NCBI GenBank assembly: GCA_020852835.1
Contig: JADZAC010000037.1
Coordinates: 1 to 64,000, forward strand
Direction: 5' to 3'
Source of the DNA: Flavobacteriales bacterium
GTDB lineage: Bacteria; Bacteroidota; Bacteroidia; Flavobacteriales_F; PHOS-HE28
DNA length: 64,000 nucleotides
Positions within the stretch are counted from its first letter, which is position 1, and each line of letters starts with the position of its first letter. The notes below the pieces were generated by a model. It was not told where the DNA came from. It saw nothing but the letters and a program-made list of their open reading frames with translations, and made no database searches. Positions 39,521 through 48,800 of this stretch are shown here, piece after piece. Position numbers and translations under genes: made by a program.

Positions 39521-41035
39521 ATGTGCGCCAAAGCGAAGAAATCCCCCACCCGCAAGCCCGCCAAGGTGAAGCAACCCATGCTGAATGGCCTGAGCGACAT
39601 CCGCCGCTTCTTCCACCGGAATGAAACGCCCATCTACTTCATCAGCGCCACCAACTTCAACCTGCTGGGGGCCGATGAATGGGTGAAGGGCTTCAAGTTC
39701 ATCACCTACATCGACTGTTTCGATGGGCTGCACCCCAACCTGATGTGCCCGGTGACCGAGGAGCCCCACGAGGAGTTCCAGAGCATAGAGGACATCAACA
39801 ACTACCTGCTCACCCACAGCGAGGTGAAGGACTACATCGCCAAGCGGGCCAAAGGGGGAAAGGCGGGCAAGGCCCTATTCCTGATGTTCGACGAGAAGAC
39901 GGAAAAACTGGCGCGTAAACTGGGCTTGGAGGTGATGTTTCCCCCGGCCAAGCTGCGCACCTTCATGGACAACAAGGTGAACACCAACCGGGTGGCCGAG
40001 AAGGCCGGCGTGCCGCCGGTGCCTTATGTGCTCAGCCCGGTGAAGAGTTACGAACACCTGCTGAAGGTGGCGGCCAAGCTGGGCACGGACCTGGTGGTGC
40101 AAACCCCCTTCGGCGACAGCGGCCACACCACCTTCTTCATCAAGGACGAGGCGGACTACCGCAAGCACGCCCACGAGATCGAGAAAGAGAAGGAGTGCAA
40201 GGTGATGAAGCGCATCAACTGCCGCGGCGCGGCCATGGAAGCGTGCGTCACCCGGCACGGCACCATCGTGGCCCCGTTGATGACCGAGCTGGTGGGCTTC
40301 AAGGAGCTCACCCCCTACAAGGGCGGCTGGTGCGGCAACGAGATCTACGCCGAGGCCTTCACGCCGTCCATCCGCCGCAAGGCGCGCAAGTACACGCAGC
40401 TCTTCGGCGACCAGTTGCTGAAGGAAGGCTACAAAGGCTATTTCGAGCTGGATTTCCTCATCGACCAGGACAACGGGGAGATCTACCTCGGGGAGCTCAA
40501 CCCCCGCATCACCGGCGCCAGCAGCATCACCAACCATGCGGCCTTCGCCATGGGCGACGCCCCGCTTCATCTCTTCCACATGCTGGAATGGATGGAACAG
40601 CCCTACACGCTGAGCGTGAACGCGCTGAACCGCCGCTGGGCCAAGGCGGAGAACATCGACTCCTGGGGGCAGATGGTCATCAAGCACACGGTGGACGACA
40701 TCCGCCGGGTGACCGAAGCCCCGCGCAGCGGCATCTGGCGCATGCGCCCCGACGGCAGCATCCACTACTGGCGCATGGACACGCACCGGCGCTACGTGGA
40801 GAATGAGAACGAAGCCTTCTTCCTGCGCATCAGCCGCGTGGGCGATTGGCTCTACGAGGGCGCCGATATGGGCATCCTGGTGATGCGCGGCCGCATGATG
40901 ACCGACGACTTCAAGCTCACTGCCCGCGCCAAGCGGTGGCTGGATGCGATCCGCGCACAGTACGCCAGCGAACTGCCCGGCGGAGGCCGCAACGCCCAGC
41001 AGACCATGGAGATCGGGGGGTTCAAGATGATGTGA
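39521..41035 (+). CDS. ATP-grasp ligase (biotin carboxylase-like fold)
   Basis: The product is a 504-residue ATP-grasp protein. After a Lys-rich start, residues about 20-140 form a pre-ATP-grasp domain, followed by the ATP-grasp core with VVQTPFGDSGHTTFFIKDE (nucleotide loop) and GYFELDFLIDQDNGEIYLGELNPRITGASS, where Glu, Asn and Arg are the usual Mg-ATP ligands. No biotin-carrier or other carboxylase subunits are nearby, so a carboxylase is unlikely; a carboxylate-amine or peptide-like ligase is more plausible, with an amine supplied by the neighbouring enzymes. The last 10 bp and the following repeat are duplicated downstream. Confidence 0.85.
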   Translation: MCAKAKKSPTRKPAKVKQPMLNGLSDIRRFFHRNETPIYFISATNFNLLGADEWVKGFKFITYIDCFDGLHPNLMCPVTEEPHEEFQSIEDINNYLLTHSEVKDYIAKRAKGGKAGKALFLMFDEKTEKLARKLGLEVMFPPAKLRTFMDNKVNTNRVAEKAGVPPVPYVLSPVKSYEHLLKVAAKLGTDLVVQTPFGDSGHTTFFIKDEADYRKHAHEIEKEKECKVMKRINCRGAAMEACVTRHGTIVAPLMTELVGFKELTPYKGGWCGNEIYAEAFTPSIRRKARKYTQLFGDQLLKEGYKGYFELDFLIDQDNGEIYLGELNPRITGASSITNHAAFAMGDAPLHLFHMLEWMEQPYTLSVNALNRRWAKAENIDSWGQMVIKHTVDDIRRVTEAPRSGIWRMRPDGSIHYWRMDTHRRYVENENEAFFLRISRVGDWLYEGADMGILVMRGRMMTDDFKLTARAKRWLDAIRAQYASELPGGGRNAQQTMEIGGFKMM

Positions 41036-41121
41036 GGGAAGGTACCGCAAAGGGTATCAAGAACACGAAGTTGTCAGGATGATGTGAAGAAGATACCGCA
41101 AAGGGCACCAAGAACACGAAG
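41026..41121 (+). repeat. direct repeat of the ATP-grasp stop region with the left repeat arm
   Basis: GATGATGTGA plus a spacer and a 28-bp arm occurs twice: 41026-41070 and 41078-41121. The arms (41043-41070 and 41094-41121) match at 26 of 28 bases, and the spacer differs by one base in length. The first copy contains the ATP-grasp stop codon. The second arm is the left partner of the inverted arm at 41686-41713. Confidence 0.85.
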
Positions 41122-41162
41122 GCGGAAAGGGGGGATCCAGCGCCTCAACCAAACCATGCACT

Positions 41163-41565
41163 ATGAGTAAATTCTCCCACATGACAGCCAATGAGCTGTC
41201 GCATATTGTGATAGGCAGGGCCATTGAAGTTCACCAGTTGTTGGGGCCCGGGCTCTTCGAGCGGATCTATGAGCATGCCTTGCTGCATGAACTTCGCGAA
41301 GGCGGAATGGAAGTTCAATCCCAACTGGAACTTCCTGTGATTTACAAGGGATCGACCTGGGCATCGGATATCGCCTTGACCTGCTGGTGGAGCAGAAATT
41401 GATCGTGGAAGTCAAGGCGGTTGCGGCATTCGATGAATCCACATGTCCCAAGCGATGACTTATCTGAAGCTCACTGAATGTGCCTTGGGATTGCTGCTCA
41501 ATTTCAACGTGGACCTCATGAAACACGGCATCAAGCGTGTGGTGCTCGGCGACCCTGATGCCTGA
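41163..41565 (+). pseudogene. GxxExxY family protein (PD-(D/E)xK-like), two frameshifts
   Basis: From ATG 41163 the frame gives IVIGRAIEVHQLLGPGLFERIYEHALLHEL, with the naming motif G-L-F-E-R-I-Y, up to VIYKG. Then a missing base near 41346-41352 shifts the frame; the next frame reads IDLGIGYRLDLLVEQKLIVEVKAV, holding the D-x-L and E-V-K residues expected of a PD-(D/E)xK nuclease site. A second missing base near 41434-41440 shifts again into MSQAMTYLKLTECALGLLLNFNVDLMKHGIKRVVL, ending at TGA 41563-41565. Corrected length is about 134 residues, normal for the family. The gene is bracketed by inverted repeats. Function of GxxExxY proteins is unknown. Confidence 0.88.
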
Positions 41566-41685
41566 GCGGATGGACTTCTGTAAGTGCACTTGGGATACAT
41601 CCGCGGTATCGCGTCCAATCCGCTCCCCAAGCGTATTTTGGCCTTCTCCACCTCGTAGGGTACATCAGTCCAAACGCCATGCATT

Positions 41686-41713
41686 CTTCGTGTCCTTCGT
41701 GCCCTTTGCGGTA
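41686..41713 (-). repeat. right inverted arm of the GxxExxY element
   Basis: The reverse complement begins TACCGCAAAGGGCACGAAG and matches the left arm at 41094-41121 at 26 of 28 positions. The two arms enclose 564 bp containing the GxxExxY pseudogene. The arm ends 7 bp before the C45 gene start. Confidence 0.88.
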
Positions 41714-41720
41714 GCCTTCC

Positions 41721-42713
41721 ATGTACATCACCCTTAAATTCATCCGCGAACCCAAGCCATCCGAGCGATGGCAGCGCTTCTTCCTGCGCGTGTGGCCTTT
41801 GTACCGCAACTGGTACCTGGGCGAAGGGGAGGATGCCCGCCCCACGCGCGCGGCGTGCCTCAACGCCCTGGGGATGCACATGCCCGAGCTGGTGCCCACC
41901 TACGAACGCCTGTGCGAACTGGCCGGCGGCGGTGATCTGGAGGCCCGCTTTCTGAGCATGTGGTGCCCCCCGCCTTACATGGCCGGCTGTTCCCAAGCCG
42001 CTTGGGTGCGCGGCAACCCCACGCTGATCCGCAACTACGACTACGATCCGCGCTACTTCGACGGGCGGATGCGTTTTACCGAATGGCGCAAGCCCGTGAT
42101 CGGCATCCAGGACAGTGCCTGGGGCATGCTGGACGGCATGAACGCCGACGGCCTGGCCCTGGCCCTGGCCTTCGGCGGGAGGAAGGTGAGCGGCAAGGGC
42201 TTCGGCATACCGCTGGTGGTGCGCTACGTGCTGGAAACCTGCTCTACCACCGAAGAGGCCGTGCGCACCCTCAGCCGCATCCCCGTCCACATGAGCTACA
42301 ACGTGCTGGTGCTCGACCGCGAGGGGCACTACGCCGTGGTGTACCTCAACCCGGACCGGCCCGCCAAGACCGTACACCAGCCCGTTTGCACCAACCACCA
42401 AGGCAGCATTGAGTGGGAGGAGTATGCGGCCTTCACCCAAACACTGCAGCGGCGCGATGAGCTGGAGGAATTGCTGCGTGATGAGAACGTGGACCGGGCG
42501 CAGCTCCTCAAGCGCTTCCTCAAGCCGCCGCTTTACCACCAGCAGTACCTGCGCGGCTTCGGCACGCTGTACGGCGTGGCCTACGACCTGAAACGCAAGG
42601 TGGTGCGCGTTTTCTGGCCGGAGCAGCACGTGGAGGCGGGCTTCAAGGAGTTCACCGAGCAGGAGCTGAAAGTGGTGCTGCTGCGGCCCGTGGGGCGCTA
42701 CATGGCGAAGTAG
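41721..42713 (+). CDS. C45 family autoproteolytic acyltransferase/hydrolase
   Basis: This Ntn-hydrolase is of the acyl-CoA:6-aminopenicillanate acyltransferase (C45) type, 330 residues. The nucleophile is probably Cys90 in MAGCSQAAW; cleavage between Gly89 and Cys90 would free it, as between Gly102 and Cys103 in the fungal enzyme. Following motifs NPTLIRNYDYDPRYFDG, GIQDSAWGMLDGMNADGLALALAFGG and SYNVLVLDREGHYAVVYLNPD with TNHQGSIEW are typical. Members transfer or hydrolyse acyl groups on amines. It follows the ATP-grasp gene once the inserted repeat element is set aside, which suggests joint action on an N-acyl amine. No signal peptide. Confidence 0.9.
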   Translation: MYITLKFIREPKPSERWQRFFLRVWPLYRNWYLGEGEDARPTRAACLNALGMHMPELVPTYERLCELAGGGDLEARFLSMWCPPPYMAGCSQAAWVRGNPTLIRNYDYDPRYFDGRMRFTEWRKPVIGIQDSAWGMLDGMNADGLALALAFGGRKVSGKGFGIPLVVRYVLETCSTTEEAVRTLSRIPVHMSYNVLVLDREGHYAVVYLNPDRPAKTVHQPVCTNHQGSIEWEEYAAFTQTLQRRDELEELLRDENVDRAQLLKRFLKPPLYHQQYLRGFGTLYGVAYDLKRKVVRVFWPEQHVEAGFKEFTEQELKVVLLRPVGRYMAK

Positions 42714-42801
42714 GCCAACGGGGGGCGGGGCAACAGCACCTGAACTTCAGTATGGTCGTGCCTCATAGAGCAGCACGGTGGTCTTATCAGGCTTCATTGT
42801 T

Positions 42802-42848
42802 GGGCCTTCGGCTCCTCGGATGCACTGCATCCGAGGAGCCGAAGGCCC
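42802..42848. repeat. perfect 47-bp palindrome
   Basis: Arms of 23 bp (42802-42824 and 42826-42848) are exact reverse complements separated by a single C. The left arm begins GGGCCTTCGGCTCCTCGG. It lies between the C45 and aldehyde dehydrogenase genes. A following CTTCAC gives no T-run, so terminator function is possible but not the only reading. Confidence 0.92.
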
Positions 42849-42895
42849 TTCACAAATCCGCACATCAGCCGGGTGGAGGCGCGTGCTCAAGCGGG

Positions 42896-42928
42896 GTTGA
42901 ACCCTCCCGGCGGCATTCGGTACCTTTG
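42896..42928 (+). promoter_or_regulatory. promoter of the second aldehyde dehydrogenase
   Basis: GTTG (42896-42899) is followed after 21 bp by TACCTTTG (42921-42928), a full match to the Bacteroidota promoter. The ATG at 42936 is only 7 bp beyond, so the mRNA would be leaderless. Confidence 0.65.
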
Positions 42929-42935
42929 CCGCACC

Positions 42936-44399
42936 ATGTCGCACACCCTTACCGCCCCCGATCTGAAGCACGCACTGTACCCCCAGGCCAACTACATCAA
43001 CGGAATTTGGCACCAGGAAGGCGACGGCAAGTTCACGACCGTGGTGGACAAATACCACGGCACCGAAATGGCCAAGCTGCCGCTGGCCACCGCCGGCCAG
43101 GTGGAGGAGGCCGTGGCCGCCGCCTACGCCAGCCGGTCCGAGCTGCGCCACATGAGCGCCGGTGAGCGCAGCGAAAAGCTGGAGGCCTTGGCCAAGCTGA
43201 TGGAAGAACGCAAGGAAGAGCTGGCCAAGCTGATCATGCAGGAGGCCGGCAAGCCCATCGGCTATGCCCGGGACGAGATCGCGCGCAGCCTCACCACCGT
43301 GCGCACCGCCGCTGCGGAAGCCCTGCGCTTCGCCGGGGAGGTCACGCCCATCGACTTCGGCAAGGGCACCGGCAAGACTGCCTTCACTAAACGTATTCCC
43401 GCCGGCGTGGTGCTGGCCGTCACACCGTTCAATTTCCCGCTGAACCTGGTGCTGCACAAGGTGGCCCCGGCCATGGCCACGGGCTGCCCCGTGGTGCTGA
43501 AGCCCGCCAAAAAGACACCGTTGAGCGCATTGGCCTTGGGGAAGATGATGGAGGAGATCGGTTGGCCCAAGGGCGGGTTCAGCGTGCTGATCTGCGCCAC
43601 CTCGCTCACCGAAACCATGGTGAAGGACGACCGCATCGCCATGTTCAGCTTCACGGGCAGCGATACCGTGGGCTGGGGCTTGAAGGCCATCTGCGGCAAG
43701 AAGAAGGTGACCCTGGAGCTGGGCGGCAACGCCGCGGTGATCATCGACCAGGGCACGGACCTCGCGGCCGCCGCCAAGGGCGTGGCCATGGGCGCCAACC
43801 TCTATGCAGGCCAAACCTGCATCAGCACCCAGCGCGTGTTCGTGGTGAAGCCGGAGTTCGAGAAATTCCGCGACCTGCTCGTGCAGGAGTTCAACGCCTT
43901 GAAAAGCGGCGACCCCGCCGACCCGGCCGTGAGCGTGGGCCCGTTGATCGGCAAGGGCGATTTTGAGCGCATCGGCACTTGGGTGGACGAAGCCGTGAAG
44001 GGCGGCGCCACGCTGCTCGCCGGCGGCAAGCCTGTGGATGCGCAACGCAACGTGTACGCCGCCACCCTGCTCACCGGAACCAAGCGCTCCATGAAGGTGG
44101 ATTGCGCCGAGGTCTTCGGGCCCATCACGGTGATCGAGCCCGTGCAAGACTTCGCCGACGGCATTGCCCGGGTGAACGATAGCAACTACGGCCTGCAGGC
44201 GGGGGTGTTCACCAACAGTTTCGCGCACGTGAAGCTGGCCCACGAGGAACTGGAGGTGGGCGGTGTGATCATCAACGGCATCCCTGGCTTCCGCATCGAC
44301 AGCATGCCCTACGGCGGCGTGAAGGACAGCGGACTGGGCCGCGAGGGCCTCCGCTACGCCATGGAAGAGATGACCGAGCCAAGGTTGATAGTGTACTGA
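42936..44399 (+). CDS. aldehyde dehydrogenase (non-ALDH3 class)
   Basis: The product is a 487-residue NAD(P)-dependent aldehyde dehydrogenase. It has TPFNFPLNLVLHKVAPAMATG and FTGSDTVGWGLK (cofactor site), LELGGNAAVIID with the general-base Glu, and catalytic Cys295 in YAGQTCISTQRVFV. The end YGGVKDSGLGREGLRYAMEEMTEPRLIVY is typical of the lactaldehyde/succinate-semialdehyde/GapN-like groups. It starts at ATG 42936 directly after a promoter, so it may be expressed on its own. With the aminotransferase it could oxidise an amino-aldehyde to the acid; the substrate is an inference. Confidence 0.93.
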   Translation: MSHTLTAPDLKHALYPQANYINGIWHQEGDGKFTTVVDKYHGTEMAKLPLATAGQVEEAVAAAYASRSELRHMSAGERSEKLEALAKLMEERKEELAKLIMQEAGKPIGYARDEIARSLTTVRTAAAEALRFAGEVTPIDFGKGTGKTAFTKRIPAGVVLAVTPFNFPLNLVLHKVAPAMATGCPVVLKPAKKTPLSALALGKMMEEIGWPKGGFSVLICATSLTETMVKDDRIAMFSFTGSDTVGWGLKAICGKKKVTLELGGNAAVIIDQGTDLAAAAKGVAMGANLYAGQTCISTQRVFVVKPEFEKFRDLLVQEFNALKSGDPADPAVSVGPLIGKGDFERIGTWVDEAVKGGATLLAGGKPVDAQRNVYAATLLTGTKRSMKVDCAEVFGPITVIEPVQDFADGIARVNDSNYGLQAGVFTNSFAHVKLAHEELEVGGVIINGIPGFRIDSMPYGGVKDSGLGREGLRYAMEEMTEPRLIVY

Positions 44400-44438
44400 T
44401 CGCCGGAACGGATAAGCAGGGCCGTAGGACACAGGAAA

Positions 44439-44498
44439 CAGGACGTAGGGCGTAGCAGGGTAGTGATGCGACCCTCACGCCCTACGAACTACATCCTG
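44439..44498. repeat. imperfect inverted repeat rich in CGTAGGGCGTAG
   Basis: The left arm (44439-44461) CAGGACGTAGGGCGTAG... faces a right arm (44471-44498) whose reverse complement is CAGGATGTAGTTCGTAGGGC..., with a 5-base insertion. It lies in the 206-bp gap between the convergent aldehyde dehydrogenase and lpxD genes and may act as a bidirectional terminator or be another repeat family. Nothing else was recognised in this gap. Confidence 0.6.
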
Positions 44499-44605
44499 CG
44501 ATCCACGCCCAAACAACTGACAACGAACAACCGGGACCTGCTCCCCCGGATCCGCTCAGGGTGAATGGAAGAGAAGCAGGTGATCGGTGGACCGGGTACC
44601 ACGGA

Positions 44606-45619
44606 CTAGGCCCCACGCTCCAGCTTCGCCACCCGCTCCACGATCTTCTCCAAGTTGCGGAAGTGGATGTAGCTCTTGCGGTACTTGCCGGCCTCCCATG
44701 CGGGGCTGCCCATGTAGCTCTCGCCTGCCTTGGTATCCTTGCTGATGCCGCTCTGCGCTGCGATGATGGTGCCGTCGGCGATCTTCAGGTGGCCGATGAT
44801 CCCCACCTGCCCGCTGAACATGCAGTTCTTGCCGATCTTGGTGCTGCCTGCCACCACGCCGCCCGCCGCGTAGTACGTGTTCTCGCCCACTTCCACGTTG
44901 TGCGCGATGTGGATCAGGTTGTCGAATTTCACGCCCTTGCGCAGGATGGTGCTGCCCAGCGTGGCGCGGTCGATGGCGCAGTTGGCCCCGATCTCCACGT
45001 TGTCCTCGATCACCACGTTGCCGATCTGCGGGATCTTGGCCCCGCCGTCCGGACCCGTGGCAAAGCGGAACCCATCGCTGCCGATCACCGTGCCGCTGTG
45101 GATGATGCAGTCCTTGCCCACCACACAGTCGGAGTAGATCTTCACACCCGCATAGATGGTGGTATTGTCGCCGATGGTGACGTTGTCGCCCACGTAGGCC
45201 TGCGGGTAGACCTTCACGTTGTTGCCCAATTTGGCGTTCTCGCCGATGAAGGCCAGGGCACCGATGTAGCAATCCGCGCCGTGCACGGCCCCTTCGGAGA
45301 GCACCGCCTGGGGCGAGATGCCCTTCTTGTTCCGCTTGATCTGGTCGTAGACCTCAAGCACCTTCGCGAAGGCACTTTGGGCATCGGCCACGCGCACCAA
45401 GGTGGTCTTCACCGGGGCCGTGAGCGCATGGTCCTTGCCGATGATCACCACAGAGGCCGTGGTGCCGTACACGTACTGTGTGTAGGCCGGGTTGGCCAGG
45501 AAGGAGAGCGACCCTTCACCGCCTTCCTCGATCTTCGAGAGGCGCGTTACGGTGGCATTGGCATTGCCTTCCACGGTGCCTTGAAGCAGGCCGGCAAGTT
45601 GTTGTGCGGTGAATTCCAT
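44606..45619 (-). CDS. lpxD: UDP-3-O-(3-hydroxyacyl)glucosamine N-acyltransferase
   Basis: LpxD adds the second hydroxy-fatty acid in lipid A synthesis. The 337 residues have an N-terminal uridine-binding domain and then a long left-handed beta-helix of hexapeptide repeats ([20 protein letters not shown] onward, about 110-300). The catalytic His is probably His240 in [11 protein letters not shown], one residue from E. coli His239. ATG 45619 is preferred to an ATG 18 bp upstream because [12 protein letters not shown] starts the fold. A TATTTTG sequence (45625-45631, minus) just upstream resembles a -7 element with one base missing. Confidence 0.96.
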
Positions 45620-45836
45620 CGGCCCAAAATAGGCCAAAGCGACCGCGTGCCTGCCCGATCGGTCTCTATGCGGAGGTCGGACGCCGGACTATTGCAGGTT
45701 GCATGGGGGGAGGGCGCCAGGAACGGCGCTGGAAGACCATATCCCCTGCCGCCCCAAGCCACCAAACATTCCAGTTGTGCGTCACATGGTTTAGTTTTAC
45801 GATTCACACGGCCTAAGCGCGCGATCGTCCACCACC

Positions 45837-48800
45837 ATGAAATGGATATTACGTTATGTCTGGATCCCTGCCTTTGCGGTATGGATGGGAAGGGCAAATG
45901 CCCAGAATGGGATCATTCCCACCATGGGCACCGAGTTTTGGCTGGGGTTCATGGAAAATTATCCGAGCGGGGACAACCAGCTCAGCTTGTACATTTCCAG
46001 CTACCACAACACCTCGGGCACGGTGAGCATGCCGTTGCAGGGCTACACCCAGAACTTCACGGTGATGGCCAACACGGTGACCACGGTGAACCTGCCGGTA
46101 TCGGCCATGCATACTTCATCTGAAACGGTGGACAACAAGGCGATCTTGGTGCAATCGGCCGATACGGTGGCGGTGTACGCCTTGAACTTCGGCTCGGCCA
46201 CGGCGGATGCGGCGGCGATCTTCCCGATCATGACCTTGGGCACGGACTACCGGGTGCATTGCTACCGGGGACTGGATGCATCACTGCCATCGGAATTCCT
46301 GGTGGTGGCCACCAAGGATGGCACACAGGTGGAGATCTCACCACGGACCTCCACGGCGGGCGGCCACGCGGCCAATGTGCCATTTGTGGTGGACCTGGAC
46401 AGCGCGGAGAGCTACCAGGTGAAGGCGGCCACGGCCACCGGCGACCTTTCGGGCAGCCGCATCCGGGGCACGGACCTCAGCGGGAGCTGCCGACCGTTTG
46501 CGGTATTTGGCGGCGCCGTGTGCACCAACATCCCCTCGGGGTGCGTAGCCTGCGACCATGTGTACGAGCAAATGCTTCCTTCGCCCGGTTGGGGGCGGCG
46601 CTACTATTTGGTGCCATGGGTGGGGCCCAGCAACTACACCTACCGGGTGATGGCCAATACCAATGGCACAACCTACACCGTGAACGGCGTGGCCCAGGCC
46701 GCGCTCAATGCCGGGCAGTTTGCCGAGGTGAACATGGCCACGGGCGCCAAGGTGATCGAGAGCACGGTGCCGATCAGCGTAGCGCAGTACATCCAAGGCC
46801 AGGATTGCTCGGGCAATGTGGGCGATCCCGCCATGCTGGTGCTCAACGCCATTGAGCAGCGCATTTCCGATATCAGTTTTGCCACGGTGGTTTCCACCAA
46901 CATCACCTCGCAATCCATTGCGGTAGTGGTGGAAACGGCAAGCTCCGGGCAGGTGGTGCTCGATGGCGCCACCATGGCCGCCTCGGCCTTCACCCCGTTC
47001 GTTGCCGATCCCACCTTCAGCCATGCCACCTTCGCGTTGAACCAAGGCAGCCACACCATCAGCTGTCCCACGGGATTGACCGGTTACGTCTACGGCGTGG
47101 GTTCCAACTACGAGACCTATGCATACAGTGCCGGTTCATTCTCGCCTTTGCCGCCGATCACGGTGGATTCCGTGTTCTGCGGGGTGGACAGCACCGGAAT
47201 GCTCACCTTGGTGGCAGAGAGCGGCATGAACAACCCTTGGTGGGCGTTACTGTCGGCCCCGGACGACACCCTGCACACCGGCCAAACCTATACGTTCGCC
47301 CCGCAGGGCAGCGATGTGTACGTCGTTACCGGAACCGAATTCCTGAGCGCCTGCACACAGCAGTATTTCTACAGCGTGGAAGTGGAGGCCCCCCCGGTGC
47401 TGACCGTCAGTGCGAGCGCCACCAACATTTGTGCTTACGAAGAAGTGCAGTTGGCCGTGGGCGTGCAGCCGGCGGGAACCTACTTGTACAACTGGTGGCC
47501 GGACCCCCCATTGAGCTCCGGCACCATCCCCGATCCCGTTGCCACCCCGGCGCAAAGCGGCTGGTTCCATGTGAGCGTGAGCTCGCTCTCGGGCTGCTCG
47601 GTGGCCGCGGACAGCATCTACATTTCCGTCACACCGGGCAATGTGCTGCGCTATGAGGCGGAAGTGGATGATGCACAGATCTGCATCGGGGATACGGCCC
47701 AGCTCAGCGTGAGGGTGTACCGGATCATCGCCGCAGACACGCTGGATACGGTGTTGGCACCTGGGCTCTGGGGGACCATCAGCGGAGGAGCCATCGGGAA
47801 CGCCTGCGGGGCGATCTCCGGAAGCGCCCTGTATTTCAATGGGGCGGCCCCTTTGCGGCAGGCACAAACGGTGGACCTGGATGTTTCGGCAGGCGGTGTG
47901 GTCCGGTTCAACATCAAGCTGGGGAGCGGAGCAGCACCCTGCGAAGCAGTGGATGCCGGGGAGAACGTCCTGGTGCAATACAGCACCAATGGCGGAGGGA
48001 GCTGGACCACCTTCAGTACCTGCTACGCCTACCAATACGTGAATTGGACGCAGGTGGAACTGGACATACCCACGGCCGCCGCCACAGCCAGCACGCGGTT
48101 CCGATGGGCGCAGCCGGTTTTCGGCGGGGTGGGGCAGGACAATTGGTCGCTGGACAATGTTGCCGTGGGCGTAGAATCCACCACGGACCTTGACTTTGCA
48201 TGGACACCCGGCGGATCCCTTGCCGACCCGACGGCTTCCGCCACTTCCGCATGGCCTTCCACCACGGGATGGTACCATGTGGGCAGTTTGGACAACACCA
48301 CCGGATGTGCATACGCGGACAGCCTCTACCTCACGGTCGGGCAGCAATTCACCTTGGCCATGACGCCGGATACGGCGATCTGCGATGTGGCCGGCATACA
48401 ACTGCAGGCCGTGCCCAGCAGTGGAACCGGGGTGGCCTACACCTGGTCGCCCAATGTGAACATCAGCAGCGTGGTGGCCGCCTCGCCCGTGGTAACGCCC
48501 ACCACCACCACAACCTACACGGTAGTGGCCACCAGTGCAGAAGGATGCGAGGCTACCGGTGATGTGGAGATCACCGTGGCCACCTTGCTCAACTTGGTCG
48601 CCACGGTGAGCGATGATGACATCTGCGTGGGCGAAACGGTCACCTTGAACGCTGCGGTGGCCAACGCACCGAACATTGCGTACCTCTGGTCGCCCGCCGC
48701 CGGGTTGAGCAGTACCACCGTCCAGAATCCCACGGGGCAACCGCTTCAGAACACTTGGTACCGGGTGGAGGCCACTGACACGCTGAGCGGCTGCGTCCTG

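Follow-up and report, generated by a model that had tools for sequence, protein, structure and literature searches.

The window, a 64,000-nt stretch of a Flavobacteriales contig, contains a perfect 47-base palindrome at positions 42802–42848 that is probably a solo copy of a REP-like hairpin dispersed through the genus, its 3′ arm turned into an exact inverted copy of its 5′ arm, with no regulatory role needed. The arm has kin elsewhere in the genome and the genus, both arms of the palindrome correspond to the 5′ arm of the hairpin family, the palindrome is absent from seven orthologous spacers, and relatives of its arm lie inside transposon-like elements.

Structure, rarity and position of the palindrome

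The palindrome comprises a left (5′) arm (42802–42824, + strand), a single C as the loop (42825) and a right arm (42826–42848, + strand). A direct check confirmed that the left arm equals the reverse complement of the right arm, giving 23-bp arms that are 100% complementary with no mismatch, as the initial annotation had described. Among the eight inverted repeats of the window (arms of at least 14 nt, within 30 nt), none is longer than the palindrome and no other shows 100% complementarity.

We counted 11 perfect hairpins with arms of 15 or longer and loops no longer than 12 in a 450,553-base sample of the same genome, made up of the window and 20 further stretches. The stretches were mostly picked near element ends, so that the count should not be read as a genome-wide average. 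When sequences of 450,553 bases were simulated three times with a first-order Markov model, none contained a perfect hairpin with arms of at least 15, the longest having arms of 13, and the palindrome is far above chance expectation. Eight of the 11 are situated between two element ends and one (C39:40001–40037) adjoins a single element end. Another (C49:68532–68564), which may be an ordinary terminator, precedes TTCCTTTG; the last is the window palindrome. The initial annotation had called the palindrome unusual, which is correct insofar as perfect palindromes are rare by chance, but it is not unique, and others with 19–23-bp arms are present in the genome.

The palindrome lies where that annotation had placed it, in a 222-bp spacer (42714–42935) between a gene for a C45-family autoproteolytic acyltransferase/hydrolase (41721–42713, + strand; NF040521, 2.2e-50; PF03417) and an aldehyde dehydrogenase family gene whose ATG begins at 42936 (42936–44399, + strand; PF00171, 1.5e-135). 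It starts 88 bases past the C45 stop codon and ends 87 bases ahead of the ATG. Downstream of it is a −7-like motif, TACCTTTG (42921–42928, + strand), with a TTG at 42897. The −7 element of Bacteroidota promoters has the form TAnnTTTG, and both the form of the motif and its spacing from the TTG are typical of such promoters. Together, TACCTTTG and the TTG make up a putative promoter-like motif for the aldehyde dehydrogenase gene, and TACCTTTG is also present in the corresponding spacer of the closest relative, G006. Open reading frames across the palindrome on either strand overlap the two recognized genes and were set aside.

Both arms correspond to the 5′ arm of a dispersed hairpin family

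The usual unit of the family, about 65 bases long, is an imperfect hairpin whose 5′ arm, CCTTCGGCTCCTCG(G/C)ATGC, differs from its 3′ arm, TGCAT(C/G)CTG(C/T)GGAGTGCCGCT(A/T/G)CGC. We collected eight imperfect units, four from G006, one each from G002 and G044 and two from the own genome, where the unit on contig C49 is the most deviant of the eight. A profile of all eight recovers both strands of the palindrome (E = 7e-7 and 3.8e-6 in 450,553 bases), a result that is partly circular because the four G006 units came from a search with the window as query. The profile of the four other units, which were themselves reached via arm relatives, detects the palindrome with a modest score (E = 1.5e-4 and 0.002) and the G006 units with strong ones (3.2e-12 to 1.2e-17 in 7,202 bases). 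Direct BLAST searches with the window as query are non-circular; the E-values lie between 1.6e-9 and 1.9e-5 for the own genome, and the best in G006 reaches 1e-5.

Whichever profile is used, either strand of the palindrome matches from positions 2–4 to positions 39–41 of about 70, which is the 5′ arm and the tip. The matches end there, and the family's 3′ arm, beginning GGAGTGCCGCTACGC, was not found in the palindrome; its place is taken by the exact reverse complement of the left arm. Compared with each of the eight units, the right arm resembles the complemented left arm of the family more than the family's own right arm; this partly follows from symmetry, and the informative point is the missing family 3′ arm. 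Because both arms match the family's 5′ arm, while the two arms of the family hairpins differ, the palindrome is most likely a derived, symmetrized copy of the dispersed REP-like hairpin.

A search for further copies of the arm, as the initial annotation had proposed, found the 20-base arm core with at most three mismatches at four other places in the own genome, each inside a repeat of about 290 bases with CAGGGCAAACGCATC-type ends. In two more copies of this element, on contigs C85 and C70, the core is simpler and consists of one long stem without the extra hairpin. Other genomes of the genus also have imperfect hairpins that include relatives of the arm, and hairpins without element ends were seen by eye in contig C207 of G006. 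The arm pair CTTCGGCTCC/GGAGCCGAAG within 31 bases is found in one of 39 genomes, and the perfect tip in one of the 395 genomes of a class sample, in both cases the own genome. A longer perfect-arm pattern scan of genome contigs, which may leave out very near genomes, returned a single record, the metagenome-assembled Bacteroidetes bacterium isolate SZAS-77. A second, near-identical perfect palindrome occurs there after the left half of the ~290-bp repeat; the right half was not recognized by half-element profiles.

Relatives of the arm lie in elements with ISAs1-like ends

The own genome contains 37 end-like sites (at most two mismatches), compared to none for a reversed control. Inspection by eye showed that five of 14 own-genome element pairs (L004, L101, L142, L130 and L118) are bounded on both sides by an exact direct repeat of 10 bases or more. 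In a second set of 11 rows, exact direct repeats are present in six (five elements), and two more match at 9 of 10 bases. An element with the same ends in G367 encloses a 376-residue frame matching ISAs1 transposase (NF033564, 1.3e-101; PF13808, PF01609), although its flanks carry no target duplication and the frame extends beyond the right end. In G004, three ISAs1 copies, each with one internal TAG, have CAGGGCTATCGCGTCTTA ends and exact 10-base duplications. A search of the own genome for an autonomous ISAs1 returned no matches. Exact ends occur in seven of the 39 genomes and an ISAs1 match in four, with an overlap of three (hypergeometric p = 0.014, kinship ignored); of the four, G004 has proteins that are 39–40% identical and the matches in G044 and G016 are partial. 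We infer, with good support, that the related elements were mobilized by an ISAs1-type system.

The elements L203, L204, L205, L206, L210 and L212, together with L118 and L136 of the own genome, combine the same ends with hairpins of the GACCCC...GGGGTC type. Because their insides are unrelated, one end type carries several unrelated palindrome sets. L203 2753–4669 (G004:C2) contains two left ends in the same orientation at a distance of 1.7 kb; the 14 bases ahead of each are identical, suggesting a tandem duplication. Most matches of L130 in other genomes of the genus are due to a nested segment of about 167 bp (query ~436–603); the whole L130 query has some match in 17 of 29 genomes.

At the window site itself, half-element profiles found no CAGGGCAAACGCATC ends around 42802–42848 (left flank, E = 0.64 over 64 kb; right flank, none), and the insertion of a full miniature element at the palindrome is unsupported by these profiles. 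Pairwise alignment of the left flank gave p = 0.003 to one copy and 0.635 to SZAS-77, and that of the right flank gave 0.224 and 0.388.

The palindrome is absent from the same spacer in relatives

We searched 39 genomes (the own genome included) with the 501 bases around the site, and obtained matches in 14. Ten of the 13 relatives with a match were examined at the corresponding place. The C45 and aldehyde dehydrogenase genes occur together in seven of these, while the stretch contains only one of the two genes in the other three. The palindrome was not found in any of the seven relative spacers with both genes adjacent and, therefore, it is special to the own lineage among the relatives seen. 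Compared to the 222 bases of the window, the spacer has only about 29, 38, 66, 97 and 119 bases in G021, G001, G006, G012 and G011, respectively, and the palindrome accounts for only the smaller part of the window's extra length. The spacer is about 732 bases long in G003 and 1,476 bases long in G019, and it holds an additional open frame in each, of 131 residues in G003 and 444 in G019. The G019 frame (L038 538–1872) and the G003 frame (L037 440–835) look like putative Fic and GxxExxY proteins. The spacer between the two genes seems to receive insertions.

The initial annotation had put forward three ideas, a recently placed element, a regulator site and a strong RNA hairpin isolating the next promoter. 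The first is the best supported of them, the arm having relatives in the genome and the genus and the palindrome being absent from the seven relatives' spacers.

A single template switch would suffice

The palindrome is real and largely explained; we infer the conversion of its arm by a template switch, the route of the copy's arrival and the lack of a dedicated function. A unit of the dispersed imperfect hairpin family would have been present at the spacer in the own lineage. During replication, a template switch (quasipalindrome correction) would then most likely have copied the 5′ arm, making the 3′ arm its exact inverted copy, and one such switch would be enough to produce the observed sequence. 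Template switching converts quasipalindromes to perfect repeats, according to PMC7202029. A precursor hairpin was not seen at 42802–42848, and the same sequence would also result from a pair of short deletions in a unit resembling the one on contig C56, or from two truncated units placed head to head.

Arms of other hairpins change together

Three elements of 580–660 bp in the own genome, L158 (G000:C85:12903–13573), L165 (G000:C24:38598–39262) and L166 (G000:C44:15068–15651), share the same ends. Each contains a pair of perfect hairpins, one with 23-bp and the other with 19-bp arms, both with 3-base loops. Arm sequences vary between the copies while their complementarity is kept.

We aligned two other hairpins in nine copies of a longer own-genome element and counted base pairs between their arms, with relatedness ignored, identical rows kept and gaps that shift in hairpin 1. 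Hairpin 1 has 179 standard and 19 non-standard pairs (shuffle mean 166.6, maximum 177), and two or more standard pair types at seven of 23 pairs. The corresponding counts for hairpin 2 are 123 and nine (shuffle mean 115.5, maximum 121), with two or more standard pair types at three of 19 pairs. None of 2,000 shuffles reached the observed number of standard pairs for either hairpin. The pairing supports, and does not prove, arm-to-arm copying or selection. Co-changing arms in two hairpin types and the perfect copy in SZAS-77 fit repeated arm copying, and they are compatible with selection on the hairpin as well. As a tentative generalization, which we regard as possible and rather doubtful, arm-to-arm copying in the genus may repeatedly make, or keep, the arms of dispersed hairpins perfectly complementary. 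Perfect palindromes with arms of some 19–23 bp would then be a standing product of ISAs1-type miniature elements and solo hairpins, and the window copy would be one end state.

Regulatory, transposase-associated and assembly explanations

Transcription of the palindrome would yield a very stable RNA stem after the C45 gene, with a predicted fold of −52.3 kcal/mol (z = −10.9). Its stability, its start 88 nt past the stop codon and its location upstream of the promoter-like motif are what one might expect of a transcription terminator, or of a stabilizer of the C45 mRNA's 3′ end, that shields the aldehyde dehydrogenase promoter. Such a function is nonetheless unlikely. A terminator and sigma-70 scan of 41500–44500 found no sites, the stem is followed by TTCACAAA rather than by a T-run, an Rfam search of 40000–46000 returned no match above the gathering score, and the seven orthologous spacers do without the palindrome. 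An RNA hairpin isolating the next promoter is a possible side effect of the stable fold. A role in mRNA stability is possible and unneeded to explain the sequence.

Mobilization as a REP by a REP-associated tyrosine transposase (RAYT) would agree with a short, extragenic palindrome in a genome with five matches to Y1 transposases. Yet we found the arm core TTCGGCTC/GAGCCGAA a single time among the five own Y1 regions and a single time among five G006 regions (covering six Y1 matches), in neither case as a hairpin, and positions 42796–42856 contain none of GTAG, CTAC, CGTC and GACG, the REP tags in either direction. We consider this route very improbable and rejected the association.

Little more can be said for the proposed regulator site. 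A perfect dyad upstream of a promoter-like motif could serve as an operator at which a dimeric protein regulates the aldehyde dehydrogenase gene, but the related arms elsewhere in the genome lie within mobile-element-like repeats and the dyad is missing from the seven orthologous spacers. Operators usually have shorter arms than the 23 bp found here, and we give this function hardly any credence.

The unlikeliest reading is an assembly artefact, an inverted chimera of the kind that a draft genome of 96 contigs might contain, against which stand a symmetry that stops after 23 bp, flanking genes that are also adjacent in seven relatives, a near-identical perfect palindrome in another assembly (SZAS-77) and relatives of the arm elsewhere.

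Comparison with known systems

Reading the palindrome as a symmetrized family hairpin links an odd-looking sequence to a repeat family, of which it becomes a traceable end state. It also cautions against reading an isolated perfect palindrome straight as an operator or a terminator. The dispersed imperfect and perfect hairpins could serve as a natural set for measuring arm-to-arm template copying outside reporter genes. A limited literature search found no paper naming the repeat, from which we do not claim its absence from print.

As in miniature inverted-repeat elements (MITEs) of the ISAs1 family, relatives of the arm reside in transposase-less elements of about 290 bp whose ends are like those around the G367 ISAs1 transposase. 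Unlike them, the window copy has no recognizable ends from which a target duplication, about 10 bp in other elements, could be located. REP elements of the GTAG and CGTC superfamilies, as PMC3733652 presents them, are likewise short, dispersed, extragenic palindromes that form hairpins, solo or grouped. The palindrome differs from these REPs in that no GTAG or CGTC tag was found, in having no RAYT seen to be flanked by it, and in arms that are perfect over 23 bp. Compared to the quasipalindrome template-switch mutations of PMC7202029, the window palindrome is an end product recognized by comparison, within a dispersed repeat and with no mutation observed in a lineage; in both, an imperfect inverted repeat would be perfected by copying one arm from the other.
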